From contig JBAIAA010000697.1 of NCBI GenBank assembly GCA_037893245.1, forward strand, positions 620,001 through 684,000: a stretch of DNA of 64,000 nt. The letters are read 5' to 3'. The translations under genes and the position numbers were made by a program. The stretch is from Crossaster papposus (lineage: Eukaryota > Echinodermata > Asteroidea > Velatida > Solasteridae). Below, piece after piece: positions 11,093 to 62,078 of this stretch (position 1 is the first letter of the stretch; the number at the start of each line of letters is the position of its first letter). The notes under the pieces were generated by a model. It had not been told where the DNA came from, made no database searches, and worked only from the letters and a program-made list of their open reading frames with translations.

Positions 11093-11170
11093 CACATAAA
11101 TGGATTAAGAATAATTTAAGAGCTGTAAGTTGTTACTCAGTCCTCATTCATCTTGGACTGACAACCAAAG

Positions 11171-29504: not shown

Positions 29505-29740
29505 GTGTAGGGGAGGGGGAGGGGAGGGGAGGGGAGGGGGAGGGGGAGGGGGGGAGGGGGAGGGGGAGGGGGAGCGGGGAGGAAGGGGGGATAGGGGGGA
29601 GGGGGAGAGGGGGGGGGCGAGGGAGGGGGAGGGGGGTGGGGGAGAGGGGGGGGGGGCGAGGGAGGGGGAGGGGGGGGGGGGGGGGGGGGGGGGGGGAGAG
29701 GGGGGGGGGCGAGGGAGGGGGGGGGGGGGCGTTAGGTAAC
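29505..29740. repeat. GGGGAG/polyG low-complexity tract
   Basis: About 230 bp of almost pure purine, GGGGAGGGGGAG with G runs of more than 20 bases. It directly precedes promoter copy 2 as a shorter G-rich tract precedes copy 1. Long open frames here on both strands are compositional. Confidence 0.9.
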
Positions 29741-31114: not shown

Positions 31115-31718
31115 ACAAATGTTTCAAAATAGCCGGGAAACTGTAATTCCTGCTCATTGGTTGTTACGTTACCCGCTTCCAGGATAAGCCCCGCCCATGC
31201 TGTAATCTTGCACCAAACCAAAACGTTTCTACTCTCTTTGCAAGCTCAAGCTCGTTTCTGATTGGCTGTAGGTTGGCTATGACCTTGTCTGTGGTCTGCG
31301 GCGGCTCGGCTGACGTGGCAAATTATGTACGTTTGAGTACTTGCCGATATACGATGAACGCTAACAGAGTGTTGCGCATTTCTTCAATAAGATACGGTTT
31401 CGAGCTACGATATTATTTAGTCTCCTATCCGTCTGATAGTCGTTCAGTGCTCTACATGCGTAGCTGCATATTAAAGTCGCGTTGTGTCGCGTTGTGTGTG
31501 CCTATCGGTCGTTGAAGTCGCCGGTGAATAATTCCAAAACGAATTCTCGATCTTTGCATTAATCGGGCAAAGCTTCGGTTTAGTTTCAAGTTAAGCCTCC
31601 CGATTGTTGTCGAGTTATACACGTGCGTATAGTAGCACTTTCATTGGCGTTGGCGTGGAAGTCGTTGGTAAATACACCCCAGTGGATTGGCGTTCATAAA
31701 TCACCTGAATCTTGGAGA
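31115..31718 (+). promoter_or_regulatory. Promoter and 5'UTR of the discoidin gene
   Basis: CpG-containing sequence directly upstream of the start codon and shared with 22110-22624. Visible elements are inverted CCAAT boxes (ATTGG at 31156 and 31261) and an Sp1-like GCCCCGCCC (31188-31196). The transcription start is not determined; CATATTAAAG near 31466 is a weak TATA candidate. The last 61 bp of the 5'UTR are absent from the upstream copy. Confidence 0.55.
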
Positions 31719-31764
31719 ATGGACGGAGCAGCAGCTTTGGTTCTGATGCTGTCAGGAATGGCAG
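31719..31764 (+). CDS. Discoidin gene exon 1 (signal peptide start)
   Basis: ATG 31719-31721 opens [15 protein letters not shown] and ends in phase 1 at a strong donor, GCAG/GTAAGA. It sits at the 3' end of the promoter block. The hydrophobic run continues only when joined to exon 2. Confidence 0.65.
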
Positions 31765-33566
31765 GTAAGATTTAATATCTGTCACCTGTGGTATTTCCTC
31801 TAGACAAGCTATTATATACATCCTACTCATTTTGTTGTCTGTTAACTGTTTCAAAAATCAATTGAAAGATATGATACACCATTGGTAATTGCTTGAATTA
31901 TCAGGAATGGGTGTTTTTTGGATTCTATTTTAGAGTAAATATCCTTTACAATCATGAATGCCGAAGAAGAAAAAACAAATAGAAAAACGGCGTTTGTCCA
32001 GCGTCGGGTAGGCCTATAGTTCTTGTTCTTTCCTTTTTTTTTCTCCCGATTGCCGTCTGGCGATCGTGATTTTAGTTTAAATCAAATTCAATTTTTCCGA
32101 ACAATTACAAGATATCTAGCGCAATCATTTTGCTGGATGCCTGGAATCATTATTTACTTTCAAGTAAGTAAGATTTTTCCTAATAATTAGGTTGTAAAAT
32201 TGTTCGATATCTGCAAATGGTGTACCCTAGCTTTTAAGGACTTTACTGCCCAAAAAGTGGATAATTTACCCAAAGATGAATGATCGCATTGTTAACATGG
32301 TGCAAGTCACGAGACCTGGGCCGATATTTACAAAAGCCTGCTAAGCCTAGTTGGCTGCTAAAATGGCCCCTAGTTGACAACTGAGCCTAGTTGGAAGCTA
32401 AGAGATATTCATAAGACTTTGCTAAGCTTAGTTTATTGCTAAGTGGGCTGCTATACGTTAGAGTTGATCTGGGGTGTCTACAAGTCACTAGTTGGCAACT
32501 AAATCGTTCGGTACGGGACCTTTTGACATTGGATGACATGGTTCATGGATTTAAATCTGAGTTTTAAGAGCCTATTTTCTTTTAGATCTCCCAATGTTAT
32601 ATTGGTTGTGGGTAATCTAGCCCTATGCTGGGTAAGAAAATTTCCCAAGCATCATTGTTCTTGCGATTGGTGTTGACATCTTTGTGCTTACTCTCAAAAA
32701 CGTTTTTCAATTCATCAAACCTGTCCGCTATAAAGAAGTTTTGTTTTTCATCACTCTAATTAGCTTTATACGTTTCTTCCCTTTACCATGTTTACCTTCC
32801 AAATCGCCATGCTTGTGTAGATTTCAATGTATACATATAGGCCTCATGTGTCAGATTTACTGCTGTTCCTAAAGGTCATCTGACCCATCCAAACCATCAC
32901 CCTACCCTTTTGACATGCAAATTCGCATTTTCCTTTTTTTGGTTTGAGGAACTGCCTATATATTGTCCTAGCTGAGTGCTTAACATATCTAGCTGCCAAC
33001 TAGCTGGAAAGTTTCTTAGCAAAGTTTTATGAATAGATAATTAGTTGGTAACCACGGAGAAGAAAACGACGGATTTAGCGGGCTGCTAAGGCTTAGTTGG
33101 CTGCTAGGTTAGCAGGCTTTTATGAATATCGGCCCTGGTTTCGGTCTCAAGGCCGTCTCGAGATTAGTTTTTGAGGTCTCGGCCTTGGTCTCGGTCTCGT
33201 ACTAACAAAGTCTCGGGGTCTCGGAGTGCTTGGACCCGGACCCGGTCGCCTCGGTCTCGGCTCCGGTCGCCTTGTGGTCTTGGTCTCGGTCGCCTCGGTC
33301 TCGGTCGCCACGCGGTCTCGACCCCGGTCGCCTTGGCCTCCGTCTCGGTCGCCTCGTGGTCTCGGTCTCGGTTGCCTCCGTCTCGGTCGCCACGCGGTCT
33401 TGGCCCCGGTCGACTCGACCTCGGTCTCGGTCGCCTTTTGGTCTCCGTCGCCTCGGTCTCAGTCGCCACGCGGTCTTGGTCAAACTGCCTTGGTATCGGT
33501 CTCGGTCGCTTTGCTGTCTCGGTCTCGGTCTCGGTCGCCTCTCGGTCTTGGTATCGGTCGCCTCGA

Positions 33567-33599
<33 letters not shown>

Positions 33600-33628
33600 A
33601 GGTCTCGGTCTAGGTCTCGGCCCAAGTC

Positions 33629-33680
<52 letters not shown>

Positions 33681-34157
33681 AGGTCTCGGTCTAGGTCCCG
33701 GCCCCGGTCGCTTCGGCCTCGGTTTCGGTCGCCTCTCGGTCTCGGTCTCGGTCTTGGCCCCGGTCGCCTCGGCCCCGGTCGCCTCGGCCCCGGTCGCCTC
33801 GGCCCCGGTCGCCTCGGCCCCGGTCGCCTCGGCCCCGGTCGCCTCGGCCCCGGTCGCCTCGGCCCCGGTCGCCTCGGCCCCGGTCGCCTCGGCCCCGGTC
33901 GCCTCGGCCCCGGTCGCCTCGGCCCCGGTCGCCTCGGCCCCGGTCGCCTCGGCCCCGGTCGCCTCGGCCCCGGTCGCCTCGGCCCCGGTCGCCTCGGCCC
34001 CGGTCGCCTCGGCCCCGGTCGCCTCGGTCTCGGTCGCCTCGGTCTCGGTCGCCTCGGTCTCGGTCTCGGTCGCCTCTCGGTCTCGGTATCGGTCGCCTCG
34101 GTCTCGGTCTCGGTCTCGGTCTAGGTCTAGTTCTCGGTCTAGGTCTCGGCCACAGTC

Positions 34158-34191
<34 letters not shown>

Positions 34192-34496
34192 AGGTCTCGG
34201 TCTAGGTCCCGGCCCCGGTCGCCTCGGCCTCGGTTTCGGTCGCCTCTCGGTCTCGGTCTCGGTCTCGGCCCCGGTCGCCTCGGCCCCGGTCGCCTCGGCC
34301 CCGGTCGCCTCGGCGCCGGTCGCCTCGGCCTCGGTCTCGGTCGCCTCTCGGTTTCGGTCTCGGTCTCGGTCTCGGTCGCCTCGGTCTCGGTCTCGGCCCC
34401 GGTCGCCTCGGCCTCGGTCTCGGTCTCGGTCTCGGTCGCCTCGGTCTCGGCTTCGGTCGCCTCGGTCGCCTCGGCCTCGGTCTCGGTCGCCTCGGC

Positions 34497-34540
<44 letters not shown>

Positions 34541-36021
34541 AGGTCTCGGTCTCGGTCTCGGTCGCCTCGGCCTCGGTCTCGGTCGCCTCTCGGTCTCGGT
34601 CTCGGTCTCGGTCCCGGTCCCCTCGGTTTTGGACATCAGGGTCTCTACTACAACACTGATTATTATCTGCCTACCCCGTTTGGTTGTTATTGCCCAACGG
34701 CAATGTGCAATGATATTTACTACTTTGTAGGGAAATATTCTTACTCAACAATTAGTTTTGCCGTTATCCGTCTATATAGGTTATTACAAATATTTACCAC
34801 TTATTGAGAAAATGTTTTTCACTCAACATTTGGTTATTGTGCCCGTTATTGCATAAATGTATAGGATTTGCTTTCTTCTGTAGATTCGTTAAGAATCTGC
34901 TTGCAATTATGTCTGCATTCAATAGGGGACTTTAAACAATAAAGAACAAACCGGTTCCATATATTACCAAACGCCCCCGATTGTCATTCGTGTACAAAAC
35001 ATATGGGAGGTGTTCCGAAAATAATGTAAAGTACAAACAAAAAAGACTGGGATAAATTCACACAGTCGTGTTTTACATAACGACTGAGGATTCAATATTG
35101 TGTTTTCCTTTGTTTATGTACTGTAACTACCCAATTCACTTATCGTATATGTTAACGGTAGGATACACCATTGGTAATTGGTTGAATTATCAGGAATAGG
35201 TGGATTTGGGGAGTTGTATTTTATAGTCAATATCGTTTTACTATAGTAAATATCGTCTGAAGTTTGACAATCATGGATTCTGAGACAATCAAGAAAAACG
35301 GCGTTCGTTTTCAACCGGCGTCGGGCAGTGGTTCCTATGTTGTACTTGGTGTTTTTTGCGCGATCGCCATCCGGCGATCGTAATTTTTGTTAAATAAAAT
35401 TCATTTTTGTTCGAAACAATTACAGAATATCTAGCGCAATATTTGTGCTGGATGCCTACAATCCCTACCCGGACCCGGTCGCCTCGGTCTCGGCTCCGGT
35501 CGCCTTGTGATCTTGGTCTCGGTCGCCTCGGTCTCGGTCGCCACGCGGTCTCGGTCTCGGTCGCCTCGCGGTTTCGCTCGCCTCGGTTTTGGTTTCGGTC
35601 GCCTTGCGGTCTTGGTCTCGGTCGCCTTGGTCTCGGTCGCCACGCGGTGTCGGCCACGGTCGCCTTGGCCTCCGTCTCGGTCGCCTCGTGGTCTCGGTCT
35701 CGGTTGCCTCCGTCTCGGTTGCCACGCGGTCCTGGCCCGGTCGACTCTACCTCGGTTTCGGTCGCCTCTTGGTCTCCGTCGCCTCGGTCTCAGTCGCCTC
35801 GCGGTCTTGGCCCAATTGCCTTGGTATCGGTCTCGGTCGCTTCGCTGTCTCGGTCTCGGTCTCGGTCGCCTCTCGGTCTCGGTCTCGGTCGCCTCGGTCT
35901 CGGTCTCAGTCTCGGTCTAGGTCTCGGTCTAGGTCTCGGCCCCGGTCGCCTCGGCCTCGGTCTCGGTCGCATCTCGGTCTCGGTCTCGGTCTCGGTCGCC
36001 TGGGTCTTGGTTTCGGTCTCC

Positions 36022-36077
<56 letters not shown>

Positions 36078-36223
36078 CCCGGTCTCGGTCGCCTCTCAGT
36101 CTCGGTCTCGGTCTCGGTCTCGGTCGCCTCGGTCGCCTCAGCCTCGGTCTTGGTCTCGGTCTCGGTCTCGGTCTAGGTCTCGGTCTAGGTCTCGGCCCCG
36201 GTCGCCTCGGCCTCGGTCTCGGT

Positions 36224-36259
<36 letters not shown>

Positions 36260-39200
36260 GCCTCGGTCTTGGTCTCGGTCTCGGTCGCCTCGGTCGCCTC
36301 GGTCTCGGTCTCGGTCCCCTCGGTTTTGGACATCAGGGTCTCTACTACAACACTGATTATTATCTGCCTACCCCGTTTGGTTGTTATTGCCCAACGGCAA
36401 TGTGCAATGATGTTTACTACTTTGTAGGGAAATATTCTTACTCAACAATTAGTTTTGCCGTTATCCGTCTATTTAGGTTAGTAAAGATATTTACCACTTA
36501 TTGAGAAAATGTTTTTCACCCAACATTTGGTTATTGTGCCCGTTATTGCATAAATGTATAGGATTTGTTTTTCTTCTGCAGATTCGTTAAGAATCTGCTT
36601 GCAATTATTTCTGCATTCAATAGGGGACTTTAAACAATAAAGAACAAAAACGGTTCCATATACATGTATTACCAAACGCCCCCGATTGCCATTCGTGTAC
36701 AAAACATATGGGAGGTGTTCTGAAAATAATGTAAAGTACAAACAAAAAAGACTGGGATAAATACACACAGTCGTGTTTTACATAACGACTGAGGATTCAA
36801 TATTGTGTTTTCCTTTGTTTATGTACTGTAACTACCCAATTTAGTCAGGTGGCTTAGCGACAATTTTCAGGATTAACGTTACCGGCCGGACAAAAGTACC
36901 AAATTTGGCATAGAGTTTCTTTTCGACCTATCTATTGATTTTATCCGTGGAACCCACTTAATCGGTTCCGATTTTCCAAGATGGCGGCCAAAATCCAAGA
37001 TGGCCGCCAGAAACAAAGGAAATGTCATATATCTGGCTGTAAAAATCGGAGATGAACAAATGAGGTGTCAATTCAGGTGTTTCCGGGGTCACTGAAACAG
37101 ATGCTGGTTATGGCATGTTGCTCGGGTCACCCATTTCCAAGATGGCTGCCAAATTTCAAAATGGCCGCCAAAAAAAAGGAAATTACGTATTTCTGACTGT
37201 GAAAATCGGAAATGAACAAATGAGGTGTGAATTCAGGGGTTTCTTGGGTCACTGAAACAGATGCTGGTCATGGCATTTTGCTCGGGTCACCCATTTCCAA
37301 GATGGTGGCCAATATAACAAAAAATACACATTGTCACTGTTAAGTACATACTGGTAGTATTCAGGAATTGTATCTACAATTGTTCAATACAATGTATTGT
37401 AACGGAACTGGGTAGGGCCTATATGCCGACTCGTATGCACGTCTAGTTAATCTAAAAATATATTGCTCATGTAGGATCACGCTTTCATACTGCGTGATAC
37501 ATGGCGCAGAGGCCAATCATCAACGCACGGCTGCATGATCAGCGTTAAGCAACCAATTACCGGTTCACGTAGCTTTTGCCTGGTAACTGCATAGATAATT
37601 AGCGCGTGGTGACCAATCGCCGTAGCGCATTTTCGCGACTTCTGGGGCCTTTTGCGCCGTTTCTAGTCAGTTCGGTGGATGGCGTCAATACTAGAAGAAG
37701 TACCTGAAGTACCCAAAGAATTACTGTGGGCACAATTGCGACAGTTGAGGTTGACTCGGTAGTGGTGCCGGGTGAGAGTCGTTGGTGTGAGGTTTAAGGA
37801 GGCTTGCCAAGTTACCTGCATGATATAATACGACCGTAGTAAGATCAACCTCGCTGAGGAATATCATGAGGAGGTGAAGGCATGCCTGATAGAATTTCAG
37901 GATGTATTTTCTTCTAAAGCACCACATCAGTACGGGCGATGCGATGCCTAACAAGGAGAGGCTTCGGCGCAATCCCTTGTGTAATCAGGAGGAGATATAG
38001 AGGCAGGTTGGAGATTTGAAGAAGCGAGGGTTTATCGAGCCATCCTATAGTCCCTGGGCTGCAAATGTTGTGTTAGTCCGGAAGAAGGACGGAACTAAGC
38101 GATTTTGTGTCGACTATCGGGGTCTGAATAAGGTAACAATCAAAGATGCTTACCCTGTCCCTCGTATCGACGAGACACTAGATGCGTTGGTGGGTGCACA
38201 GTGGTTTTCCACTCTCGATTTAGCGTCCGGTTATTAGCAGGTCGACCTCGATGAGGATGCCAACCAGAAGTTAACCTTTGTAGTGCGGAACGGTTTATAC
38301 AGCTGGCGCTGCATGCCCTTTGGTCTGTGCAACGCCTCTGCGACATTTGAAAAATTGATGAAGAGGGTGATGACAGGTCTTCAGTGGGACATCCTGCTGA
38401 TATACCTGGACGATGTCATTGTGTTTGGCAAGACTGTAAAAGAGGAGATTGAACGACTGTAAGTCGTCTTCTCCAGGTTGAGGCGAGCTGGTTTGAAGTT
38501 GAAGCCTGGTAAGTGCTTCTTGTTTCAGATATCAGTGGGCTATTTGGGACATATTGTGTCGCCTGAAGGTGTGGCTACCGACCTTGAGAGGGTTCGGGCC
38601 GTGGCCAATTGGCCAACACCTAAGTGTGTTTAGGAAGTTTGAAGCTTTTTAGGCCTCGCTTCATATTACCGGATGTTTTTCAGGGGATTTGCAGAGGTTG
38701 CTTCACCGTTGCATGCGCTGACTGAAAAGTCGCGTGAGTTCAAGTGGACAGATGCCTTCCAACAGGCATTTGTTGAGTTAAAGTGGAGTTAAAGTGGGGA
38801 TGGGATTGGGGCAGTTTTGTCTCAGATCCATGATGGGGAAGAGAAGGTTATCGGCTTTGCGAGCTGTAAACTCAGCAAGGCAGAGAGGAACTACTGTGTT
38901 ACCCGGAGAGAACTTCTGGCGGGAGTTGTCTACCTCAGGAAGTTTAGACAGTTCCTGTATGGTCAGAAGGTGCTACTCTGAACCGACCATGCTGCTCTTA
39001 TAGGTGAATGCTTAATTTTAAGGACCCCGAGGATCAGCTTGCCAGGTGGCTGGAAGTGATCAGCGAGTACGATTTGACAATTCAACACAGACCTGGGCGG
39101 AAGCATGGAAATGCTGATGGGTTGTCCCGGAAGGCCTGCGAACAGTGTGGTCGTGCTGACGCTGATGAAGCGTCAGAGACCGTTGAGGCTTCGAATAAGG

Positions 39201-42200
39201 CCAAGGTGACAACGATCAGTGAGGTTGACGATGGTCGCCATGTGGTTGACTCTGACATGCCGATCCTAGAGGCGAGGGTGAGGGGCATCTTTGCTCAACC
39301 ACACTTGCCTAAGGATGCAGTCAGAGAGGGTCAACTTGATGACAGAAGTATTGGTTGGGTGATTAGGTCCTCTTGGAATCAGTGGAAGGTGCAGGATGGT
39401 GTCCTAGAAATTAGGAGTCCGGCGATGGGAAGTCCGTGAGGTTGCGACTGGCACTTCCTGATAAATTTAGAGAGGTCGTACTTCAGGAGCTGCATGGTGG
39501 CCGGACGAGTGGCCAGACGAGTGGGCATTTAGGGGTCAATAAGACTTTGGTCAAGGTCAAGTTGCGATACTATTGGCTCGGAATGACCGCGGATGTGAGG
39601 TCATTTATCAGACTAGATGTTGCGAGCTGTGTGGGAGGAGGACATCTCCTGCGAAGCAAAGAGTTTCCCCGCTCAAACAGTATTTGGTGGTCGAGCTCAT
39701 GGAGAAAGTGGCGGTGGATTTGCTGGGGCCACTCCCTCGGTGTGACACTTTAGGAAACCTGCAAGGAGGTATCCTGAGAGGAAGCATAGGCTTCCCGTCA
39801 GATATAGGGATTAGGTTAGCCATCACCAAGGAACACTTATTTGGACGGCAAGCTGGTGCAGGAAGAAGCGCCAGTTTTGACTGCCAGTTTTGTCGGAGTT
39901 AATCCGTCACATCCTACACCACATTAACATATCCATACCACTTTATAAGATTCAGCTTTGCTGAATCTAAAAATAATTTACACCTCTATATAATAATGCT
40001 AGTTCTTATATAGCGCTTTTAGACTCCCACAATGTGGGTGTATCAAAGCGCTTTATATACAAATTTCTGTCATATATCTTAAATGTAGTATTGGCGGCCA
40101 TCTTAGAAATGGGTGACCTGAGCAAAATGTCATGGCCAGCATCTATTTCAGTGACCCCAGAAACCCCTGAATTGACACCTCATTTGTTCATTTTCGATTT
40201 TCACATTCAGATATACGTAATTTTCTTTTTTTTGGCGGCCATTTTGAAATTTGGCCGCCATATTAGAAATGGGTGACCCGAGCAACATGCCATGACCAGC
40301 ATCGGTTTCAGTGACCCCGAAACACCTGAATTGACACCTCATTTGTTCATTTCCAATTTTCACACTCAGAAATACGTAATTTCCTTTTTTTTGGCGGCCA
40401 TTTTGAAATTTGGCCGCCATCTTGGAAATGGGTTACCCGAGCTACATGCCATGACCAGCATCTGTTTCACTGACCCCGGCAACACCTGAATTGACACCTC
40501 ATTTGTTCATCTCCGATTTTTAAAGCCAGATATATGACATTTTCTTTGTTTCTGGCGGCCATCTTGGATTTTGGCCGCCATCTTGGAAAATCGGAACCGA
40601 TCAAGTGGGTTCCACGGATAAAATCAATAGATAGGTCGAAAAGAAACTCCATGCCAAATTTGGTACTTTTGTCCGGCCGGTAACGTTAAATTTGCTAAGC
40701 CACCTGACTAATTCACTTATCGTACATTTTAACGGTAGGATACACCATTGGTAATTGGTTGAATTATCAGGAATAGGTGGATTTGGGGGGTTGTATTTTA
40801 TAGTCAATATCGTTTTACTATAGTAAATATCGTCTGAAGTTTGACAATCATGGATTCTGAGACAATCAAGAAAAACGGCGTTCGTTTTCAACCGGCGTCG
40901 GGCAGTGGTTCCTATGTTGTACTTGGTGTTTTTTTTGCGCGATCACCGTCCGGCGATCGTAATTTTTGTTAAATAAAATTCATTTTTGTTCGGAACAATT
41001 ACAGGATATCTAGCGCAATATTTGTGCTGGATGCCTACAATCACTATTTACTTTCAATTAAAGATATTTCTTAATAATTCGGTAGTTAATATTTTCGATA
41101 TCTGCAAATGGTATATCCTACAGAGGACAACATTCAACAACAAAAAAACATTCACAATCCGGCACTAGGGTGGCCCTGAATTTGAACGATGACAAACATG
41201 TTATCGTATATATCTAAGCATATATCTGAGATGTGGAAGATTTTATTGTAGATTTCTGCACAGATTTATGTGATGGTGAATATTTTCTGGGTAGATTTTT
41301 GAAAAGTCGCATATTTTTATTTTAGATTTCAAGTTCTGCGCAAATTTCTTAGTAGGCAAATGTGTGCGATGTCGCAGGGCCAGGGATGGGCACTACATGT
41401 ACATTTTCATTGCACATTTAATTCTGCGCAGCTATGTCGCACTCACGTACAGCAGATTTATATGCACATTTATGTGCACATTTCTGCCGCGATGTCAGCA
41501 CATACGACGTTTTGAAAGTTGAAGTACGACATTTTGAACGTTTTTAATGTTATAGTGTTCTAAAACGGACAGGCAACGTCGTGGTTCAACTTTCAAAACG
41601 TCTTGGTTCAACTTTCAAAACGTCGTACTTCAACTTTCAATTAACGTCGTGGTTCAACTTTCGCGCGCTTTTACCTGGCTCAAGGTAGCCGCGCAATCGG
41701 CCGGATATCTGTCCGCGGATTTAGTCATGCATTCACCAAAAGCCGACAAATATATAATACATGCTGCAAAAGGTGATGCATTTTCTAAAAGGTTTATGTC
41801 ATTTTATTTAAATACTTTTTCAAAATAACCGGTAAATAATAATAATTTTTTAAACCATTTCAAATCATACAACATAAGCTAAACATGTTTAACCTCTCCT
41901 GTAATTCTGATAACAAATTACAGTTAAATTAGCTGCTTAATGGAAGTAATTCTACTTCGAGTTATTTGTCAAACCCTTTATAGAAATTTCAAACAATACG
42001 GCAACAGTGTGTTTTTTACAAATTCAAGACCTGCTTTTATCATTGCTGCACTTTCTTTTCCTTTTGCCACATGAATTGCAATTGTACATTTCTGTAAAGC
42101 ACACCTGCAAGGACAATCTTTCCGTGCCCCACTCTTTCTATCTGGCAAGTGTTCTTTCAAGCACGAGTGGCAGTGCGGAGTTTCCAAGATTCTTTTATAT

Positions 42201-45200
42201 GCTAATGTTAACATATAACCGTTGTTCATTGTTTACATTTTATGTAGTTTTGATAATATCTGCTTATTTGCACTCGACCTTAGACACTTACATTTGACCC
42301 AAGTGTGCTATATATCGCAAAGAATTATGGGGCGATATTTGGTGAAAAAAAAAATATGGACACGGTCTGAAACCGTCTTTTACCTAACGATCTAAGCTGA
42401 CAAACTACTAGGATCCATCTAATGATGCAGAACTTAGTTGAAGGGCTGTTGTGTTATTAAATAAAGTAACAGTTATCGTTCTCATAAAATCTGGCGTGGT
42501 GAAATTAATTGTTGAAATTGTTGATTGACGAAACTGATTCACCGAGAACATTGCAAATAAGCCCAACCAAGTGCGAGTGCACTAATTACTGTTCGGCTGA
42601 AGCCTATACCAAAATTAAGTGTGCCCAGAAACAGGATCTCGTAGATCATGAAATCCAAATATGAGGTTTGAATAACATGTGATGTACACTTTGTTTTAAA
42701 GAGGCAGATATACTCGCAGCTGAAAAACGCATTACAATGCTGCATTGAAAAGGGGATTTATATTCAACGGGCTAATTAGGCACTAATTAGTGTTCGGCTG
42801 AAGCCTATACCGACATTAAGTTTGCCCAGTAACATTATCTTGTAGATTATGAAATAAAAGTATGAGTTTTTGATAACATGTGAGGTATATTTTGTTTTAA
42901 ATGTTTCATTCTCATTTCCAAATCTATAAAAATAACTCGAAGTAGGATTACTTAGTTCATTAGGCAGCTAATTTAACTGTAATTTGTCATCAAAATTACA
43001 GGAAAGGTTAAACAAGTGTGGCTAATATGCTGTATGATTTGAAAGGGTTTGAAAAAGGTATTGTTATATTTACAGTTTATTTCGAAAAATTCTTTAAATA
43101 AATTGACATAGGCCTAAACCTTTTTAGAAAATGCATCACCTTTTGCAGCATGTATTAAATATTTGTCGCCTTTTGGTGAATGCGGACTGAATCCGCGCGG
43201 AGAGATCCGGTTGAATACACGGCTACCTTGAGCCAGGTAAAAGCGCACGACGTTTTGAAAGTTAAAGTACGATGTTTTGAATGTTGAACCACGACGTTTT
43301 AAAAGTTGAAGTACGAAGTTTGCCTGTCCGTTTTAGAACATAGGTGCATGCCCATCCGTGCGACATCGCACAAATCTGCGTACTGAGAAATCTTCGCTGA
43401 ACTTGAAATCTAATATTAAAAGGGGCCTTTCCAAAAACATGCGCCATCACATAAATATGTGCAGAAATCTACAATCAAATCCATCTCAGATATATGCTTA
43501 GATATATGCGATAACATGTTTGTCAACGTTCAAATTCGCGATATCGCAGAATCTGCAATGTGTGATGTCCTTTCAGGGCCACCCTAGTGCCGGATTGGAA
43601 AAGCATCCGATTTGCGAATATGTTCGGTTTGCAAAAAGCATCCGAGTTTATAAAAAGCATTCAAACTAAAAACGCATTCGAAGTAAAAAAGCATTCGAGA
43701 TTACAAAAAGCATCCGAACTAGAAAAGCATCCGAATTAAAAAAACATCTGAATTAAAAAAGCATCCGAGTTTGCAAAAAGCATCCGAATTAAGAATACAT
43801 CCGAATTAGGAAAGCATCCGAATTGTAAAAATACGTCCGATCTTTTTGACACTAATTCTGCTTCATACGTGAACCACATAACGATCGAGGATCCCATATT
43901 GTGTTTTCCTTTATTCCTATGTTATACCCTAACCCCATTACCTTAGCGCTTGCCCCGACGATCGAGGACCGAATTCGGACATTCATACCGTCGATCGAGG
44001 ATCCTTTATTCCTTTTGTTCTCTTTTGTGCTTCGACCCTCGATCGTTATGTGGTACCAGAGCACGACTGTGTGTGTGTGCTTGCAATTATTTCTGCATTC
44101 AATAGGGGACTGTAAACAATAAAGAACACAACGGTTCCATATATTACCAAACGCCCCCGATGGCCATTCGTGTACAAAACATATGGGAGGTGTTCTGAAA
44201 ATAATGTAAACTACAAACAAAAAAGACTGGGATATTTTCACACAGTCGTGTTTTACATAACGACTGAGGATTCAATATTGTGTTTTCCTTTGTTTATGTA
44301 CTGTAACTTAACCCAATTCACTTATCGTACATTTTAACGGTAGGATACACCATTGGTAATTGGTTGAATTATCAGGAATAGGTGGATATTGGGGGTTGTA
44401 CTTTAAAGTCAATATCGTTTTACTATAATAAATATTGTCTGAAGTTTGACAATCATGGATTCTGAGACAATCTAGAAAAACGGCGTTCGTTTTCAACCGG
44501 CGTCGGGCAGTGGTTCCTATGTTGTACTTGTGGGGTTTTTGCGCGATCGCCGTCCGGCGATCGTAATTTTGGTTAAATAAAATTCATTTTTGTTCAGAAC
44601 AATTACAGGATATCTAGCGCATTATTTGTGCTGGATGCCTACAATCACTATTTACTTTCAATTCATAAATACCTGGGACAGTTTAGGCATTCCTATTGGT
44701 CGAGAGCCCGTCACGTGGCCGGTATTAAACGGACGATAAAGACATGGCTGGAAGTGTTTAAACCCAGCTGGAAACAACATTCCGTCCCCAGGACTCACTT
44801 TATTTCCAACCCTGAACCGTACCTCGTCTCCAATAATAAGAGCGGGTAGTGTTGGGCGCGTGCAGCCCGACACCTTGGGAACGAGGTTGCCAATGGCAGC
44901 AATAGTCTGGTTTACAGTAAATACGCTTTATTGCATGTATTGTGTAGAGAGCGACAGAGGCGGAAACATGTCATTTGACACAGACAGAATGGCGAAACAC
45001 CGAAATTTACTCGCGACAATTTTCCTGGATTTTCGGGGCTTTTTGGGCTGAATTTTACAAAAAAGGTATTTATGAATGGAAATAAATGTGTGTTCGGTTC
45101 GGCTCGGGTAATTATCAGCACCCAGACTCCAAGCGGTATTAAACAGAGTGATTAAAACCTCTCGAACACACATTTATTCCCTTAATAAATACCTAGGAGA

Positions 45201-48200
45201 GTTGATGGCTTCTGATTGGTCGAGACACGATCAGGTTGTAATATCATTAGCCTCTGTCATGAAATGACGAAAATCAACCGAAGAGGGCGTTTAGCGGAAA
45301 TTTGTCAATATGGCTTCCGTGCTCTCGCTTAAGACTAACGTAATTAGCTATACCATGGAGGAAAGACAACAGATACTTAGTGAATTGCGGGGAAATACTT
45401 TTAAAAAAATGGCCAATCATAAAACTAGATTTGCTTTCCTGCACTTGAAAAGACCCGCCGTGTATTTATGCTTCTTAGAACTGAAACCGGTTAGGCCCAA
45501 CATTTTAACAATGTTTTTTTTTCAGTGGCACTGAACTGAAGCTTTATGAATGCCATAATGCAATACAGTAAAACAAATCTGGGGCCAATTCGTACAAGCA
45601 ATATTCTTTTTGCATTTTTTTTGTTGACATCAAATATAAACTTTGGGGCTTTATACACAAGCACTTTGTTTACATAATTACTATATGAACGTTAAACCTC
45701 AACTTAACTCATGAATAATTCATACTTTGTGTTTGACGTACTACCCATGAAAACGCATACATATGGTGGCCCTGAAGGGACTCCGCAGATCGCGAATATT
45801 GACGTCAAATTTGACGTCAATATTCGCGACTTCTGGTGAAAGTCGCCGTGAATATCGACGTCAAATTTGACGTCAATATTCGCGACTTTTTTGGAAAGTC
45901 GTGAATATTGACGTCAAATTTGACGTCGATATTTGCGATCTGCGGAGTCCCTTCAGGGCCACCATGTATGCGTTTTCATGGGTAGTACGTCATCACTTTT
46001 CGCTGGTTTACAAGTCCGCTGGTACTATATCGTGGATTTCATTGTGGTTTTCAGTGGATCTTTGCCGGGAACCAGTACAGGGCGGGAAATTTCAAAATCG
46101 AAGAATCGAGGTCTAATTTTGTCGGTCAAATTGCAACAAAATTATTTAGAGAAAAACATGACCGTAACAATAGTGTTACCTGAAACACAACATAAACAAG
46201 GTCCGATAATAAATTTAATGTGTGAGTTTTCGTTGTAGTCCATCTTTAAAAACCAACCAGTTTTAAATACTGTCACATTAAATGTAGACGCCTGTGAAAT
46301 CTAGTATCTTTCACCCTTTTATTGACTGAAACCTTACATGAATAAATGGCATTTACTATTAAAAGAAGTTCGTAAATATTAAACTTGAATTTTCCAAGAA
46401 TTATTCAATTACGCCACGACTAAGGGAACACTCGGTCGACTGTGTGCCAAATTTCTGGACGCCACCGTTTTATGTTTTTTTTTACTAAGTTTACACCTTA
46501 ATTGTTAACAGACGGTAAATAGCAAGCATTAATAACATTAACATGGTAAAGGTACAATGAATTTTCAGTTTGTCAACGAAAAAAAGATTGGCAACATTGC
46601 ATGAGGAAAGCCGGCCCAACATAACTGTTTATAAACAATGTAAACGCCGAGCTTAGCGACGTCGAAGTACAGCTATATACGCACGTACGTATAGCGCAGC
46701 ACACTTTCACCAACTGACCATTTTTTCAGTCCATGTTTCTTTCTCTTTCGTAATTTTACGGTTTTGGATGACAGTCAGCCTTATGCCTATGGTTTATTCT
46801 TTCGAAATAGCCACAGCATTTAGAGCTCCGTCGTAAGCCATACAATTCTGACATCGACGACACACGTGGTTGTGTTGTTAAGCGCCGCCATTTTGACAAT
46901 TTTCCGCGCGTTGACCTTTTAGAAAGGTCATGACAGAGTCTAATGGGCTTTCAAGAAGAAGCGAATAAATGTCCCCTAAACCAGCATTGATCAAGCATCA
47001 TGTAAGCCAATGATTGGCCGAATGCAACAGTTCTACAGTAACTTGTAACAAGGACGCGTCAAAAATTGATACTGCGCGCTATAAAATGTACGCGTAGAAC
47101 ATTTGTATATATATACGCGCAGCATTTTTCAAAATGCGCGTGTCGTCTGTTAACGCTAGCGCGTTGCTATGCACGGTGGGCATCAGTGGTCAGCTAGTCT
47201 GGTCTCAAGGTATGGGTTATAATAACAACACATATTGAAGAAACAGGGTACCGTGCATAAGTTAAAACATGGCCCCTAAACATTATTATTAATTTCTGGT
47301 AATGAAACCAAGGATCCTTCAAAAGTGCTCAAGGCACTGTAGCTGGTAAGCCCGAAGAAACCTGTAGACAGAGGCTGTGTCAGCCAGGAACACCGGGGCA
47401 AACCCTTTCTCTTAGCGATAAGTGTTCTGGGTTCTTTTACGTGCATTATACAATTTTATAATGTTATAATGGGAGATATATATACACACATTATAAATTA
47501 TACAACACACGGGACCTACAACTTTACGTCCCATCTGAAGGACGAAGCAATAGTGGTTTAATTGCCTTGCTTAAGGACACACGTGTCCACACCGAGACTC
47601 GAACTCACGCTCTGCGGAACAGAAAACCAAGCTCTTAACCGCTCGGCCACGACACTCCACACCAAAACGCTAGAAATATTGCCGGAAGGAAAGTCACGAA
47701 ATTTTGAGAATTTTTACCATTTGCCTCGTTAAAAAGGTATGTATTAAAGGTAATAACAGTGCGAAGACCCGGTTATTACTGCGTGATTATAACCGGGTTG
47801 GGGGATGACCGCAGATAATGGACCTCGCCTTCGACTCGATCCATTACCTGCGGTCATCCCCCAACCCGGTCATTATCACACAGTAATAACCGGGTCTTCG
47901 TCGCACTGTTATTACCTATATAAACATACGGAGACTACATTGTGTCTACATGGGGAGATTATTTGGAAGTTTTGTTTATGTTTCATTAAATCCAAAGTGT
48001 TCTTGACTGGTGTTGCGAGCGAGCAGAGGACGTGTTACTTCGGTCCCCCACCAGAACCTGATCCTGATACTCCAGATCACTGGATGAAGCAAGTCATGCA
48101 AGAGATACGGAAGCGTTGCCGGGGAAACAGTGAACCTAAACCACCCGGTAAGTCACCTTACTAATGCTATCTCCCGTCACATCGAATGCGCAGCATACTG

Positions 48201-50660
48201 TAATAATCGGCTTTCAAAACAAAACAAAAAACAAAACAAAAACCACCAATGTTCGTGCATGGTCTCATTCCCAAAAATATTCTCCCAAATGTTAAATATT
48301 ACTTAAAGCCAAGTGTTTGTTGGCGGTTTGTTTGTTTGCCTATTTATTTATTATTTGTGTATGTATGTTATTTATTATTATTTGTATATAACAATATCGG
48401 TATATTTTGACATAAACATCAATAACACATTGGTTTGTTTTCTCGTTTGTTACCAACAGAGTGTTCGAGTCCGCAGCCTCTCGGCATGGAGGACGGGGCA
48501 ATCCAAGATGATCGCATCACAGCGTCCCGTAGTTACCCTCAGTGGCCTCCACACCTGGCACGCCTCAACCTGAGCCCCGGCACATGGCTAGCATTCAGGT
48601 TGGCATTAAAGTGAAATACCACGCCTGATACGTATCTTTATTACAATGCCACAAAACGCGCCTAAAATGGTTTAATAGTCATCAAAACGCCGACTCAGAT
48701 TTGTTTTCGTATTTTTTATTTGGTCTGTTTTGTTTTTATTCTAAACAAAATCTAGCCCAATCCCGATGCGCGCTCAATTATTGCACACTATTATACAGTT
48801 TCAATAATTGTGTTTTAGTTTCAAATCCATTTAAGCAATCGATTAAATCGCGTTGTTGTGTTATAATGTCATCAGTCTCGCATTACACATATAAACATTT
48901 GAATATGAGATGTAATTATAATAAGTACATGTAGTTTGCAGTACTAGCATCATGAACATGTGGCATTTCGTTTTTGTGAGTTGTGGTTCTGAAAGGAATT
49001 GGAGGGAACTCGACATTTTGAATAGTACGCTCTGCCCGTCCTCAGGAAACTAAGGGATTCCAACGGAGAAGCGGGGTTATATTAAGCCTGGAAGCGATGA
49101 AGCGTACGAAGGATGTAACTGAGGGGTACTCATGCAGAACGCTTGATGATCACTGAGGCGTGTCAGTGTGAAGGAACGGACAGAAATGGAAAGTTGCCAA
49201 GGGTATAGGCGATCCATAGGCTGGAGAACTACGTGTCCTAGAGTACATGGGACCCATCAGACTGGGAGGTGGTGGTGGGTAGGGCGCCAAATGTTGCTTC
49301 GCCGTTTGAATCCCTCAGTCTCCATACGAAGGGCAGGGCATTCTGTCCGAGACGTTGATATCCCTCTGTTTCTTGTTAGAACCACACAACTCACTATACA
49401 GAATTTCCACATGGTGCTACCGCAAACTACTTATCTTGTTGCTATTTTGCAATGCAAACTTTCAAACTTCTGGTCCTTGTTTAGAACCACACAATTACCA
49501 CATGGTGTTACATGTACACGTTGTTATATGTATCAGCTGATATAACAACAATGGCGATTTACAGGCGATTTGTTTTCAAGCCACATACGTATCCCATACG
49601 CGTATCTAATGGTTCCTATTCATCCCTTCACTCTGTGCACATAGCTCCAATGGTTCCTGGATAGAGGTGGACCTCGTTGAGAGTACAGTGTTGACAGGAG
49701 TAATCACACAGGGACTGGATACGCGTTGGTATGTGAAGCGGTACACGGTGGCGTATCAGAAGCAGCCCTCATCTGAATATGAACACGTAACAGATGGAAA
49801 CGGAAACATTAAGGTGAACGTTAATCTTAACTTAACAGGCTTTGCAGGTATTTACAGGACATTGGGCCGATTTTACGAAACGCCAAGACGGGTCTTAGAA
49901 AAAAAATGTAACTCGTCCTAACTCGCGACTAAAGTTAGGACGCTTTAAACACGTCATAACTTCCATAGCAACGCGGCTTAACTCGTCTTAACTTAAGATC
50001 GGTCCGAGGGTCGTCTTATCTCACGTGCGTTAATCTATATTATTGTCTAGAAACCATCGCATTATCTTCTCGTTTTAGACAAAATGTCGGCCTAGAGTTA
50101 TAGTTTCAAAGAAAACAAAATATTACCAACAGTTTGTTTTCTTCAGTCGCGTGTATCGTAAAAAAACCATATATTTATACGCCAGCAACTAGTCGACTCT
50201 GTTGTATAGAACGTGCAGAGCTACCGTACGTGGTTATATTACGCTGACTAGTTTGCGCGTTTCTTTTCAACGACTGTTTACTCTAGCGGTAAAAAACAAA
50301 CACGAAACAGCTATCAAATTGATAGTTGCAATATGTCTTCATAAGATTGGTTTATTAAAATCGATCTTAGGACAAGTCTTCGTACAGAATAGATAACTAT
50401 TGTGCATGTGCTGCGGCGATACGTTTCTGGTAATCAATTTGTAATTGTTAAAAGTCTCCTCCTCGCCGAATGACTATTGATATCGCTAAATGTAAACGTT
50501 TTGGTTTCAGGAATTCGTCAGTAACACTGATGGCAACACCCCGGTCACCAACCTGTTCGATGAGAGTGTGGGGGCGAAGAAGGTGCGCATTCAGCCTACT
50601 GCCTGGGCTAATGGTGGTGTTGGTTTGCGGTTCGAGTTGCTTGGATGTCGAATCGATTAG
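31719..50660 (+). CDS. Secreted F5/8-type C (discoidin) domain protein, 5 exons
   Basis: Join: 31719-31764, 47998-48147, 48460-48598, 49645-49813, 50511-50660. All introns are GT-AG, phases match at each joint, and the total is 654 nt (217 aa plus TAG). Exon 1 plus the start of exon 2 give a signal peptide ([15 protein letters not shown], then VFLTGVAS, cleavage likely before EQRTC). A ~40-residue linker follows with two Cys and a [11 protein letters not shown] stretch. Exons 3-5 form one complete discoidin domain, from [17 protein letters not shown] through [11 protein letters not shown] and [11 protein letters not shown] to VRIQPTAW and a final LLGC. The first and last Cys of the domain are the expected disulfide pair. 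Such domains bind sugars, lipids or cell surfaces outside the cell, so an extracellular lectin-like or adhesion role is likely; the ligand is unknown. The weakest step is the link of exon 1 across 16.2 kb. It rests on phase, splice sites and the signal peptide it completes. Confidence 0.75.
31870..32240 (+). mobile_element. Repeat D MITE, diverged copy
   Basis: Runs from GATACACCATTGGTAATTG to GCAAATGGTGTACCCTAG. Terminal inverted repeat of about 13-15 bp (GGATACACCATT). Diverged from the other + copies, so older. Confidence 0.65.
32316..33137. mobile_element. 820 bp element with GGGCCGATATT ends
   Basis: GGGCCGATATTTACAAAAGC at the left is matched in inverse by GCTTTTATGAATATCGGCCC at the right. 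Subterminal CTAAGCCTAGTTGGCTGCTA words recur in both arms. Non-autonomous DNA element; target duplication not resolved. The GGTCTC array starts immediately after it. Confidence 0.7.
33138..34625. repeat. GGTCTC hexamer array with 18 perfect 15-mers
   Basis: About 1.5 kb of GGTCTC, GGTCGCCTC and related words. From 33756 to 34025 the 15-mer GGCCCCGGTCGCCTC is repeated 18 times without a single difference; a shorter set of it recurs near 34264-34325. Because 6 and 15 are multiples of three, every frame stays open, giving false ORFs (RDRDRD, SVSVSV, GPGRL). Confidence 0.95.
34626..35135 (+). repeat. Repeat E, copy 1
   Basis: Follows the GGTCTC array after GGTTTTGGACATCAGGGTCT. Near-identical to 36323-36841; a partial copy is at 44080-44335. 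Ends CTACCCAATTCACTTATCG, which is the empty site for the 3.9 kb element in copy 2. Confidence 0.8.
35148..35463 (+). mobile_element. Repeat D MITE, right end cut by array
   Basis: Begins TAGGATACACCATTGGTAAT and stops after GATGCCTACAATC, where the second GGTCTC array begins. Very close to the copies at 40735 and 44338. Confidence 0.75.
35464..36322. repeat. GGTCTC hexamer array, second
   Basis: About 860 bp of the same hexamer and GGTCGCCTC words as the first array and with the same right flank (repeat E), so array plus E form a duplicated unit. The long open frames here are compositional. Confidence 0.95.
36323..36841 (+). repeat. Repeat E, copy 2
   Basis: Near-identical to 34626-35135 up to CTACCCAATT, then interrupted by the 3.9 kb element. 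The continuing part resumes at 40711. Confidence 0.8.
37396..37984 (+). other. Possible Gypsy 5' LTR/leader region
   Basis: TGTAACGGAACTGG at 37396 looks like the start of a Gypsy LTR and precedes the pol fragment by about 600 bp. No second LTR copy was found, so the LTR edges are not proven. Confidence 0.3.
37985..39905 (+). pseudogene. Degenerate Ty3/Gypsy pol (RT, RNase H, integrase)
   Basis: Ordered pieces of one polyprotein with stops and frameshifts. Reverse transcriptase: [20 protein letters not shown] (38016-38237, ending at a stop in the [10 protein letters not shown] block), then the YLDDV catalytic block near 38402. RNase H region: about 38650-39000. [16 protein letters not shown] marks the RNase H end near 39090. 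An integrase zinc-binding-like stretch with [17 protein letters not shown] lies near 39525-39575, and the start of the integrase core near 39700. At least five breaks are visible. No gag, no 3' LTR. It lies inside the 3.9 kb TIR element. It is a dead copy. Confidence 0.85.
39906..40084. other. Spacer with partial MITE hairpin
   Basis: TATATAGCGCTTTTAGACTC pairs inversely with TCAAAGCGCTTTATATAC around CCCACAATGTGGG (about 40010-40065). A shorter stem, GATTCAGC/GCTGAATC, is at 39950. Confidence 0.5.
40735..41120 (+). mobile_element. Repeat D MITE, complete copy with TA
   Basis: The best full-length copy. GGATACACCATT begins after CGGTA and the right end AATGGTATATCC is followed by TA. Ends are inverted over about 12-15 bp. 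No ORF. The TA target suggests a Tc1/mariner-type MITE of about 380 bp. Confidence 0.75.
41153..43602. mobile_element. 2.45 kb giant foldback element
   Basis: CAATCCGGCACTAGGGTGGC at 41153 is repeated in inverse at the right end (GCCACCCTAGTGCCGGATTG). The imperfect arms extend about 600-800 bp inward. Each arm has a cluster of 20-24 bp words of the type ACGTCGTGGTTCAACTTTC and their inverses (41506-41670 and 43248-43330). The centre, 41960-42950, has no supported gene. Confidence 0.75.
43605..43842. repeat. Degenerate ~20 bp tandem repeat
   Basis: About a dozen copies of AAAAAGCATCCGAATTA-like units next to the right end of the foldback. Confidence 0.8.
44080..44335 (+). repeat. Repeat E, partial copy 3
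   Basis: Matches the last 250 bp of repeat E (GCTTGCAATTATTTCTGCAT onward) and leads directly into repeat D, as in the other two E-D pairs. The sequence just before it (43850-44075) has an imperfect inverted pair around CGATCGAGGATCC. Confidence 0.75.
44338..44661 (+). mobile_element. Repeat D MITE, interrupted at right
   Basis: Starts TAGGATACACCATTGGTAAT and runs to ACTATTTACTTTCAATT, where the foldback-family element begins. Confidence 0.75.
44662..45195. mobile_element. Foldback element, loop family copy 2 (one arm lost)
   Basis: Inverse of 17083-17500 followed by a collapsed version of the palindrome. GTGTGTTCGGTTCGGCTCGG at 45088 joins the outer end of one arm directly to the loop, so most of that arm is deleted. 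Ends ATTCCCTTAATAAATACCTA. Confidence 0.65.
45310..45534 (+). other. Small ORF beside a foldback terminus, unrecognised
   Basis: 75 codons beginning [20 protein letters not shown] and continuing [13 protein letters not shown], preceded by ATTGGTCGAGA-type sequence like the end of the adjacent foldback element. The first half looks protein-like and the second half does not. It might be a captured first exon. Lies in intron 1. Confidence 0.2.
45734..45992. mobile_element. 259 bp palindromic MITE with TGACGTCA cluster
   Basis: TGACGTACTACCCATGAAAA and its inverse bound the element, and the arms continue through GGTGGCCCTGAAGGGACTCC. The centre has three copies of a palindromic unit around GACGTCAAATTTGACGTC. 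These contain four perfect TGACGTCA sites and two with one mismatch. Confidence 0.75.
47310..47660 (-). mobile_element. tRNA-derived SINE
   Basis: On the minus strand the head has an A box (GGCCGAGCGGTTAAGAG, about 47650-47632) and a B box (GAGTTCGAGTCTC, 47606-47594), as in Ser/Leu-type tRNAs. The body follows with CGTCCTTCAGATGGGACGT and CTGACACAGCCTCTG. Closely similar SINEs are, from memory, abundant in marine deuterostomes and some molluscs. Confidence 0.7.
47748..47916. repeat. 169 bp near-perfect palindrome sharing the foldback loop
   Basis: AGGTAATAACAGTGCGAAGA pairs with the inverse at 47897-47916; arms are about 75 bp. The tip 47820-47842, read on the minus strand, contains CGAGTCGAAGGCGAGG. 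That is almost the loop of the unrelated stem at 16901-17080. It ends 81 bp before exon 2 of the discoidin gene. Confidence 0.75.
47998..48147 (+). CDS. Discoidin gene exon 2 (signal peptide end and linker)
   Basis: Acceptor AATCCAAAG/TG, donor CCCG/GTAAGT. Encodes [16 protein letters not shown], then the Pro/Asp-rich linker and [14 protein letters not shown]. Enters and leaves in phase 1. Confidence 0.75.
48460..48598 (+). CDS. Discoidin gene exon 3 (domain start)
   Basis: Acceptor TTACCAACAG, donor TTCAG/GTTGGC. Encodes [19 protein letters not shown] and the next N-terminal strands of the F5/8C fold, ending LSPGTWLAF. Leaves in phase 2. Confidence 0.85.
48599..49644 (+). other. Intron 3 of the discoidin gene
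   Basis: AT-rich. ATTTCCACATGGTGCTACC near 49407 and TTACCACATGGTGTTACAT near 49495 share a short motif preceded by AGAACCACACAA, an imperfect local duplication. No mobile element recognised. Confidence 0.5.
49645..49813 (+). CDS. Discoidin gene exon 4 (domain middle)
   Basis: Acceptor GTGCACATAG, donor TTAAG/GTGAAC. Encodes [20 protein letters not shown] and [11 protein letters not shown], the best-conserved core of the domain. Ends on a codon boundary. Confidence 0.88.
49814..50510 (+). other. Intron 4 of the discoidin gene with possible MITE
   Basis: GGGCCGATTTTACGAAACGC near 49863 and the later CTTAGGACAAGTCTTCGTAC near 50367 suggest diverged inverted ends of a small DNA element. Otherwise no feature. 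Confidence 0.35.
50511..50660 (+). CDS. Discoidin gene exon 5 (domain end, stop)
   Basis: Acceptor TTGGTTTCAG, stop TAG at 50658-50660. Encodes [29 protein letters not shown] and GLRFELLGC, then RID and stop. The protein therefore ends directly after the domain. Confidence 0.88.
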   Translation, partial: EFVSNTDGNTPVTNLFDESVGAKKVRIQPTAWANGGVGLRFELLGCRID

Positions 50661-50825
50661 TTCTGCTAAAGCTTATAAGCGCTGTTCGTATTCGCGGCAA
50701 AACAATGAAAAAAAACAAAAAAAACGGAAAATTGACAGTTGACCAAACAAATGAGAACCGCCAGCATAATAGACCTAAACAATAACACTGACAATATATT
50801 ATATTCTGTAAATAAACAATATCGC
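50661..50825 (+). terminator. 3'UTR running into repeat A; candidate poly(A) signal
   Basis: The composite repeat starts at about 50753, 93 bp after the stop codon. The first AATAAA is at 50812-50817, inside the repeat, so the gene may now use a repeat-derived polyadenylation signal. Confidence 0.4.
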
Positions 50826-50998
50826 AAAAAAACCTAATTGTTCTAGAATGTGTTATTTTTTGATGAAAATATCATTGTTTTGTATTCACCTTAGGTATTT
50901 TGGTATAAATGTCTATATTTATCTTAATTAGTCTATATCGGCGAGTGGAGGATGAGATAACTAAACTTTTACGACCGTGGAAATTCGAAAATCGAAGA

Positions 50999-56640: not shown

Positions 56641-56838
56641 CAGACGTGTTGGTATGTGTACATGTATAGTGTATGTATATATTTGCATATGTGTGTGTAT
56701 ATGTATGGGTATGGGTATGGATATGGATATGGATATATAGATGCATAGAAATATGGATAGATGTATATGGATGTGTATGGATATATTATATGGATATAGG
56801 GATATATAGGAATATGTATGGGTATAGATGGATGGAAA
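56640..56838. repeat. GTATAT/ATATGG low-complexity stretch
   Basis: Degenerate GTATGG/ATATGG hexamers leading into the 12 bp array. Confidence 0.7.
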
Positions 56839-57198
56839 GGCAAGGAAAAAGGCAAGGAAAAAGGCAAGGAAAAAGGCAAGGAAAAAGGCCAAGGAAAAAG
56901 GCCAAGGAAAAAGGCCAAGGAAAAAGCCAAGGAAAAAGGCAAGGAAAAAGGCAAGGAAAAAGGCAAGGAAAAAGGCAAGGAAAAAGGCAAGGAAAAAGGC
57001 AAGGAAAAAGGCAAGGAAAAAGGCAAGGAAAAAGGCAAGGAAAAAGGCAAGGAAAAAGGCAAGGAAAAAGGCAAGGAAAAAGGCAAGGAAAAAGGCAAGG
57101 AAAAAGGCAAGGAAAAAGGCAAGGAAAAAGGCAAGGAAAAAGGCAAGGAAAAAGGCAAGGAAAAAGGCAAGGAAAAAGGCAAGGAAAAAGGCAAGGAA
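56839..57198. repeat. 12 bp tandem array GGCAAGGAAAAA
   Basis: About 30 nearly perfect copies; a few near 56886-56935 are 13 bp (GGCCAAGGAAAAA). The purine-rich strand gives KGKEKG or ARKKAR frames and the other strand FLAFFL frames, none credible as proteins. Confidence 0.95.
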
Positions 57199-61774: not shown

Positions 61775-61942
61775 TGGGATGAGATGTGGGATGAGATGTG
61801 GGATGAGATGTGGGATGAGATGTGGGATGAGATGTGGGATGAGCTATGGGATGAGCTATGGGATGAGATATGGGATGAGATATGGGATGAGATATGGGAT
61901 GAGATATGGGATGAGATATGGGATGAGATATGGGATGAGATA
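61775..61942. repeat. 12 bp tandem array GTGGGATGAGAT
   Basis: About 14 copies in three successive variants (GATGTGG, GCTATGG, GATATGG), so the array grew in blocks. Translates as WDEMWDEM, which is compositional. Confidence 0.92.
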
Positions 61943-62078
61943 AGGGTTGGGTGTAGATGAAGAGAGCATAGGGGAATGGATTGGGAGTCTAAGTTCGGAG
62001 CGAAGAATCCTTCCCCCCATTTCTAAGATCAAATGTGGACTCTGGAGTCCGAACAAAGCAGCGATGCAAATACTTTAC

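Follow-up and report, generated by a model that had tools for sequence, protein, structure and literature searches.

A predicted discoidin gene with a very long first intron in Crossaster papposus and its probable place in a large family with variable loops

A short reading frame whose first exon lies some 16 kb away from all the others raises several questions at once: whether the pieces belong to a single gene, whether the long interval is a deposit of mobile DNA, and what kind of protein such a gene would make. Here these questions are taken up for a window of 64,000 nucleotides from Crossaster papposus, by which we mean the whole stretch of DNA analysed (C697:620001-684000, where C697 abbreviates contig JBAIAA010000697.1 and other contigs are named likewise). 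The searched genome was the assembly of 1.02 Gb in 1,841 contigs, and positions given without a contig are those of the window.

The gene is read from the + strand. A promoter and 5' leader (31400-31718), kept between family copies, precede exon 1 (31719-31764), which provides the start codon and the first part of a likely signal peptide and ends in a phase 1 donor. Beyond intron 1 (31765-47997; 16,233 bp), exon 2 (47998-48147) supplies the end of the likely signal peptide and an N-terminal segment with two cysteines, exon 3 (48460-48598) opens the discoidin domain, exon 4 (49645-49813) holds its middle part, and exon 5 (50511-50660) closes it and carries the stop codon. Joined, these exons make 654 nt, which translate to 217 amino acids and a stop; the borders of all four introns are GT/AG, and exons 2-5 lie within 2,663 bp. 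The original prediction of five GT-AG exons in an exact 218-codon frame, with an intron 1 of about 16.2 kb and the remaining exons inside 2.7 kb, is thus borne out by measurement. Its proposal that exon 2 completes a signal peptide also stands as a likely one, since a hydrophobic stretch crosses the exon 1/exon 2 junction (11-residue hydropathy up to 2.45). The Pfam comparison suggested for the discoidin domain was run and gave a full-length match to F5_F8_type_C (residues 85-211 against profile positions 2-127 of 127, E 4.6e-19), which at 69.2 bits against a curated cut-off of 28.2 places the protein in the F5/8 type C family.

Could exon 1 nevertheless be foreign to the gene, with transcription beginning near 47998 and intron 1 being no intron at all? 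The frame of exon 2 is indeed open upstream as far as 47793, but among 11 copies examined no conserved in-frame ATG is found within 40 codons upstream of exon 2: two copies have an in-frame ATG at the far end of this stretch and two others a stop. Exon 1 with its donor (51 nt, up to 3 mismatches) recurs at 138 sites in the genome, against none for the reversed control; this is a count of sites and not of loci per haploid genome, and since the assembly may hold both haplotypes, the copies per haploid genome may be fewer. A same-strand exon 1 lies within 20 kb upstream at 45 of the 77 listed exon 2 sites, but also within 20 kb downstream at 26 of the 77, as clustered genes would give, so that proximity alone is weak evidence. 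The join of exon 1 to exon 2, moreover, carries on the hydrophobic leader. Taken together, these observations make a foreign exon 1 very improbable. As exon 1 with its donor and exons 2-3 are conserved across copies, a chance join is excluded, and the predicted gene of the window is, as judged from sequence, a genuine five-exon discoidin gene with a very long first intron.

Searches with other parts of the gene uncovered further copies. A 451-nt stretch of promoter and exon 1 (31400-31850) gave 475 candidates, of which the best 40 were scored, with long matches 86-100% identical. Forty copies, the window included, were chosen by similarity in the end of exon 2 and intron 2 and not by exon 3 (best 40 of 135). 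In all 40, exons 2-3 are open and free of stops, and their splice sites are conserved; exon 2 is always 150 nt, and exon 3 is 130, 136, 139 or 142 nt, all in frame. In 19 copies examined, all exons with an end-to-end alignment match those of the window in length and have intact splice dinucleotides; other exons were left out of this check. In one exon 4 copy, C164_990, the frame stops at the loop. The gene therefore has many clustered copies with open frames (138 exon 1 sites; 40 of 40 open). Other matches to the discoidin profile PF00754 are grouped on further contigs, for example C113, C121 and C561 (154 matches; best 150 of 1,106 candidates).

The distance between exon 1 and exon 2 could be followed through the family by pairing 112 exon 1 and 77 exon 2 sites among the matches listed, a pair being an exon 1 with an exon 2 downstream on the same strand, at most 40 kb away, and no other listed exon 1 between them. 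The 49 pairs found among these matches have start-to-start distances of 6,561 to 35,804 bp (median 11,842), of which the two greatest (34.8 and 35.8 kb) could be spurious, as the pairing covers the listed sites. Since all 49 are at least 6.5 kb apart, a long intron 1 appears to be a family-wide trait. On C632, exon 1 copies themselves occur in pairs 2.6-2.8 kb apart (1196626/1199470, 1496658/1499303, 1581408/1584052 and 1649091/1651737) and are possible alternative first exons.

These pairs also bear on how intron 1 is to be understood, as this gene in particular had been described as split by an intron made almost wholly of mobile DNA, with two GGTCTC arrays and giant foldbacks among at least ten separate elements. 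As a long first intron is seen in every pair found, a special status of this gene is not supported. The arrays and the foldbacks are present, but the arrays are not separate elements. On the + strand, array 1 (33175-34627, edges approximate), whose listed genome matches are at family loci, is followed by spacer 1 (34628-35467), array 2 (35467-36324), which is the second unit of an array-plus-spacer duplication, and spacer 2 (36325-41143), which is broken by a foldback element; a third spacer-like unit (44078-44663) is 94% identical to spacer 2. Spacers 1 and 2 are 95.9% identical over 854 bp, which rules out two independent insertions of arrays and, with the third unit, indicates that array and spacer multiplied in place. 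Moreover, parts of the intron are kept even in C608:1083 kb, the most diverged copy compared, at 77-96% identity by block. With the arrays and their spacers, the latter of about 0.85 kb, duplicated internally and the listed array matches confined to family loci, "almost wholly mobile" is an overstatement.

A 28-mer of the array matched 104 sites in the genome (control 0), and the 100 listed of these fall into 45 runs (merged by hand), all near family exons and on the strand of the gene: 38 runs follow a same-strand exon 1 of the list by no more than 20 kb, and the remaining 7 precede an exon 2 or exon 4 of the list by no more than 8 kb. Such confinement would suit an array that serves splicing, timing or a recombination that keeps promoters and exon 1 alike. 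Duplication alone, however, would confine the array to one strand, and the GGTCTC array is missing from C362:911 kb and C164:3205 kb, in both of which every exon is open. A function of this kind for intron 1 is improbable, and the intron is most likely passive.

Where mobile DNA has entered the intron could be followed by comparing it with five paralogous introns (C697:850 kb, C362:495 kb, C362:911 kb, C164:3205 kb and C608:1083 kb), the first of which is 98.2-99.1% identical to the window in aligned blocks. The foldback element at 36842-40709 (3,868 bp, with arms of about 480 bp, a target duplication of 3-4 bp and a retroelement integrase fragment inside, matching the integrase zinc-binding profile Integrase_H2C2) is absent, with a 4-nt overlap at the junction, from C362:495 kb, C362:911 kb and C164:3205 kb, the junction letters having been displayed for C362:495 kb and C164:3205 kb. 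It is present in C697:850 kb, and C608:1083 kb does not align at the site. The empty sites in three copies prove that this foldback is an insertion, and it is the sole element of the window copy so proven, the count of at least ten not being confirmed; one of its ends has 259 candidates in the genome, the best 40 of which match at 98-100% on many contigs. Near-identical copies with and without this 3.87 kb foldback show how recent duplicates come to differ in the DNA that a long intron common to them has acquired or lost. For a second large palindrome, a candidate foldback element (41178-43537), a clean empty site was not found among the paralogous introns compared; the difference at 41144-44652 was rejected as one, as 136 bp of other sequence occupies the position. 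A short palindromic, MITE-like element (45745-45985; 1,032 genome candidates, best 40 scored) is common elsewhere in the genome and is shared by six family copies, and is therefore older. An insertion of 201 bp into other copies at 45703 was considered and set aside: as four of the five other introns carry the segment (the fifth does not align) and no target duplication was seen, its loss from the window copy is likelier. Elsewhere, C362:495 kb has an extra 280 bp of its own at 47752, with a 5-nt overlap, and in the 3' flank 101 bp (50735-50835) are missing from C697:850 kb, also with a 5-nt overlap, and present in C362:495 kb.

Outside the gene, the window holds an 891-codon open frame with endonuclease and reverse transcriptase domains, that is, a LINE-type retroelement (6826-9498, + strand), and a transposase in pieces (11162-12265, + strand), which we take to be mariner-like and which is seen as two frames, one bearing a helix-turn-helix domain and the other a DDE match that falls short of the curated cut-off. 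It also holds a G-run array (29510-29729) and two near-perfect 12-mer arrays (56836-57198 and 61775-61946; 98% and 97% matches). In the assembly at large, the 5.3 Mb contig C8 carries COX1 frames without stops in the standard code and is probably a bacterial chromosome. In the mitochondrial COX1, AAA is read as Asn, ATA as Ile, AGA as Ser and TGA as Trp at positions whose conserved residues call for them, which agrees with an echinoderm; the flatworm code does not differ at these codons.

It is in the discoidin domain that the copies differ most tellingly. Three stretches on the + strand stand out: hypervariable stretch 1 in exon 3 (48528-48557), which aligns with the loop of factor VIII C2 containing M2199-F2200; hypervariable stretch 2, also in exon 3 (48570-48596), around an invariant Trp and beside Q2213-R2215 of C2; and variable stretch 3 in exon 4 (49715-49732), at the C2 hairpin that holds L2251-L2252. 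In the exon 3 alignment, 17 of 47 columns are invariant in all 40 copies and seven have 8 to 12 states (gap counted), and the copies display 32 distinct loop combinations and 16 framework versions. Stretch 3 has 17 distinct forms among 24 copies, counted from 25 exon 4 peptides with C164_990 left out for the stop at its loop. Twenty exon 4 copies were high matches of a protein search whose query included the loop, so that its variety is, if anything, understated.

Set against the introns, the concentration of change at these loops is seen in close relatives. When fixed windows of 25 nt were scanned in 35 close pairs (intron 2 below 3%, out of 780), which overlap in the copies they share, exon 3 had two peaks, of 18.6% and 12.2%, with 3.0% in the ARLN window between them, as against 0.6-2.8% in intron 2 and 2.2-5.3% in intron 3. 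Non-overlapping pairs were then formed from nearest copies by intron 2, each copy used once and intron 2 at most 5%, with no full phylogenetic correction. In 16 such pairs the loops differ at 152 of 840 sites (18.1%), compared with 73/4919 (1.5%) in intron 2, 132/1984 (6.7%) in intron 3, 40/2400 (1.7%) in exon 2 and 21/1296 in the exon 3 framework. In the 13 pairs of equal exon 3 length the loops differ at 74/684 sites (10.8%) and the introns at 49/3992 (1.2%) and 48/1618 (3.0%). Because the columns counted as loops were chosen once the variable sites were known, a fault from which the fixed windows are free, the p-values for loops against introns (odds ratio 7.2, p 3.7e-57 for the 16 pairs; p 2.3e-28 for the 13) are optimistic, as are those for dN/dS given below. 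When all 780 pairs are taken, the beginning of intron 3 (20.0%) is about as divergent as the whole of exon 3 (19.0%), with intron 2 at 7.1%, and the 127 pairs with intron 2 at 0.5-5% give 13.8%, 15.3% and 3.7%, respectively. As read from these alignments, variation is concentrated at the loops above the flanking introns in close pairs only.

Overall, the gene of the window is one member of a large clustered discoidin family that probably forms a germline-encoded, diversified recognition repertoire of secreted proteins. A near-invariant promoter and exon 1 begin the likely signal peptide, and a long intron 1, in every pair found, separates them from a compact body of four exons. The discoidin framework is near constant, with hypervariable loops at positions that match the binding loops of other discoidin domains, and diversifying selection on the loops, together with exchange between copies, would yield a germline repertoire of secreted binding proteins. 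Intron 1 would have grown alongside by internal duplication of its arrays and by transposon insertion.

Need selection for diversity be invoked at all? The variable loops could be a neutral by-product of relaxed constraint or of gene conversion in short tracts from diverged paralogs, and several of the measurements lean this way. In 20 pairs the dN/dS of the loops is 1.20, not significantly above 1 (binomial p 0.41), so that positive selection was not established by this comparison; the same analysis gives 0.39 for the exon 3 framework and 0.35 for exon 2. Overlapping pairs give 2.25 for the whole of exon 3 (45 pairs, 10 copies), a value set aside as a test on account of that overlap, 0.18 for exon 2 (105 pairs, 15 copies), 0.83 for exon 4 (28 pairs, 8 copies) and 0.61 for exon 5 (21 pairs, 7 copies). 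Between the window and C362:922 kb, with introns 2 and 3 about 98-99% identical, exon 3 has 11.5 non-synonymous and 0.5 synonymous changes. Synonymous change is itself raised in the loops (pS 0.217 against 0.057 in exon 2), and cassette exchange or local hypermutation may therefore explain part of their divergence. Exon 2 types and exon 3 lengths are also found in mixed combinations: AVASEYR with 136, 139 and 142 nt (3, 3 and 2 copies), ASEQ types with 136 and 139 nt (10 and 17) and GVASEY with 130 and 136 nt (1 and 4), which points to recombination unless length changes recurred. These mixed combinations and the similar divergence of the intron 3 start and exon 3 over all pairs would equally suit a neutral origin. 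Neutral loops, though, would be expected to diverge like introns, and in close pairs they exceed them, also where exon 3 is of equal length; the invariant ARLN sits between the two peaks; and the ratio of non-synonymous to synonymous change differs between loops and exon 2 (Fisher p 8.1e-5). On balance, a neutral origin seems unlikely, and selection for diversity would be what drives the variation of the loops.

What such loops might recognise is a separate matter, as a constant framework, variable binding loops and clustered copies would be expected no less of a family diversified for gamete binding, adhesion or mucus, its loops tracking a changing partner in the animal itself. Gamete proteins are usually few, and a hundred copies would be unlike them. 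In favour of such a role, PMC12472103 mentions discoidin domains in connection with non-permanent marine adhesives and then turns to sea urchin adhesive proteins. We regard this alternative as rather unlikely, though it deserves more weight than a neutral origin. In the recognition repertoire that we favour, the proteins would be secreted, their loops would bind targets as those of other discoidin domains do, and the targets would be microbial or other non-self surfaces, an immune role being the most likely. We put forward more tentatively that a single secreted discoidin domain may serve as an antibody-like scaffold, with three loops on one face that resemble CDRs, about a hundred germline copies varied by selection and cassette exchange, and one homogenised promoter and leader exon. 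If true, the repertoire would be a natural library with which to study what discoidin loops can bind, and how their diversity comes about without somatic rearrangement.

By sequence, the best solved relatives of the protein are the C domains of factors VIII and V and the neuropilins (factor VIII E 9.1e-39 over two C domains, 1.3-1.9e-17 per domain), and the F5/8 type C domain is what it has in common with the factor V/VIII C domains, the neuropilin b domains and retinoschisin. The Arg of the closing LR.E.LGC motif of factor VIII is kept; we take it to be R2320, counting from the residues named below. Factor V/VIII, neuropilin and retinoschisin are each encoded by one gene and have several domains or loops that do not vary, whereas the family described here has a single domain, a likely signal peptide, 138 exon 1 sites and hypervariable loops. 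In the alignment, each of stretches 1-3 lies at or next to a membrane-binding hairpin of factor VIII C2; at the hairpin of stretch 3, factor VIII carries an insertion of three residues that holds L2251-L2252. M2199-F2200, Q2213-R2215 and L2251-L2252 are membrane-binding or lie below the membrane surface according to PMC9643838, and residue numbers were carried over by counting from those named there.

In the open-licence PMC literature, as judged by listings and the beginnings of abstracts, no paper was recognised as reporting such a discoidin family, and the terms "coagulation factor" and "type C" were not found in the portion consulted of one genome paper (PMC13228809). The SpTransformer (185/333) genes, a clustered immune gene family of sea urchins, offer a parallel in that they likewise combine clustering and a conserved exon 1 with a variable second part and segmental duplications (PMC8634487). 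Each consists of two exons separated by a single intron, the second exon holding repeats (PMC5491942), and the sequenced genome has 17 of them. In contrast, the genes of the present family are built of five exons and encode a discoidin domain, their intron 1 measuring at least 6.5 kb, and membership among the two-exon repeat genes was accordingly rejected. FREPs, VCBPs and other variable lectins of invertebrates are germline multigene repertoires with a conserved scaffold and a variable binding region, to which the present family can be likened from their general description; FREPs and VCBPs use immunoglobulin or fibrinogen scaffolds, unlike the discoidin family. To our knowledge, large germline recognition repertoires of invertebrates are known on few scaffolds.
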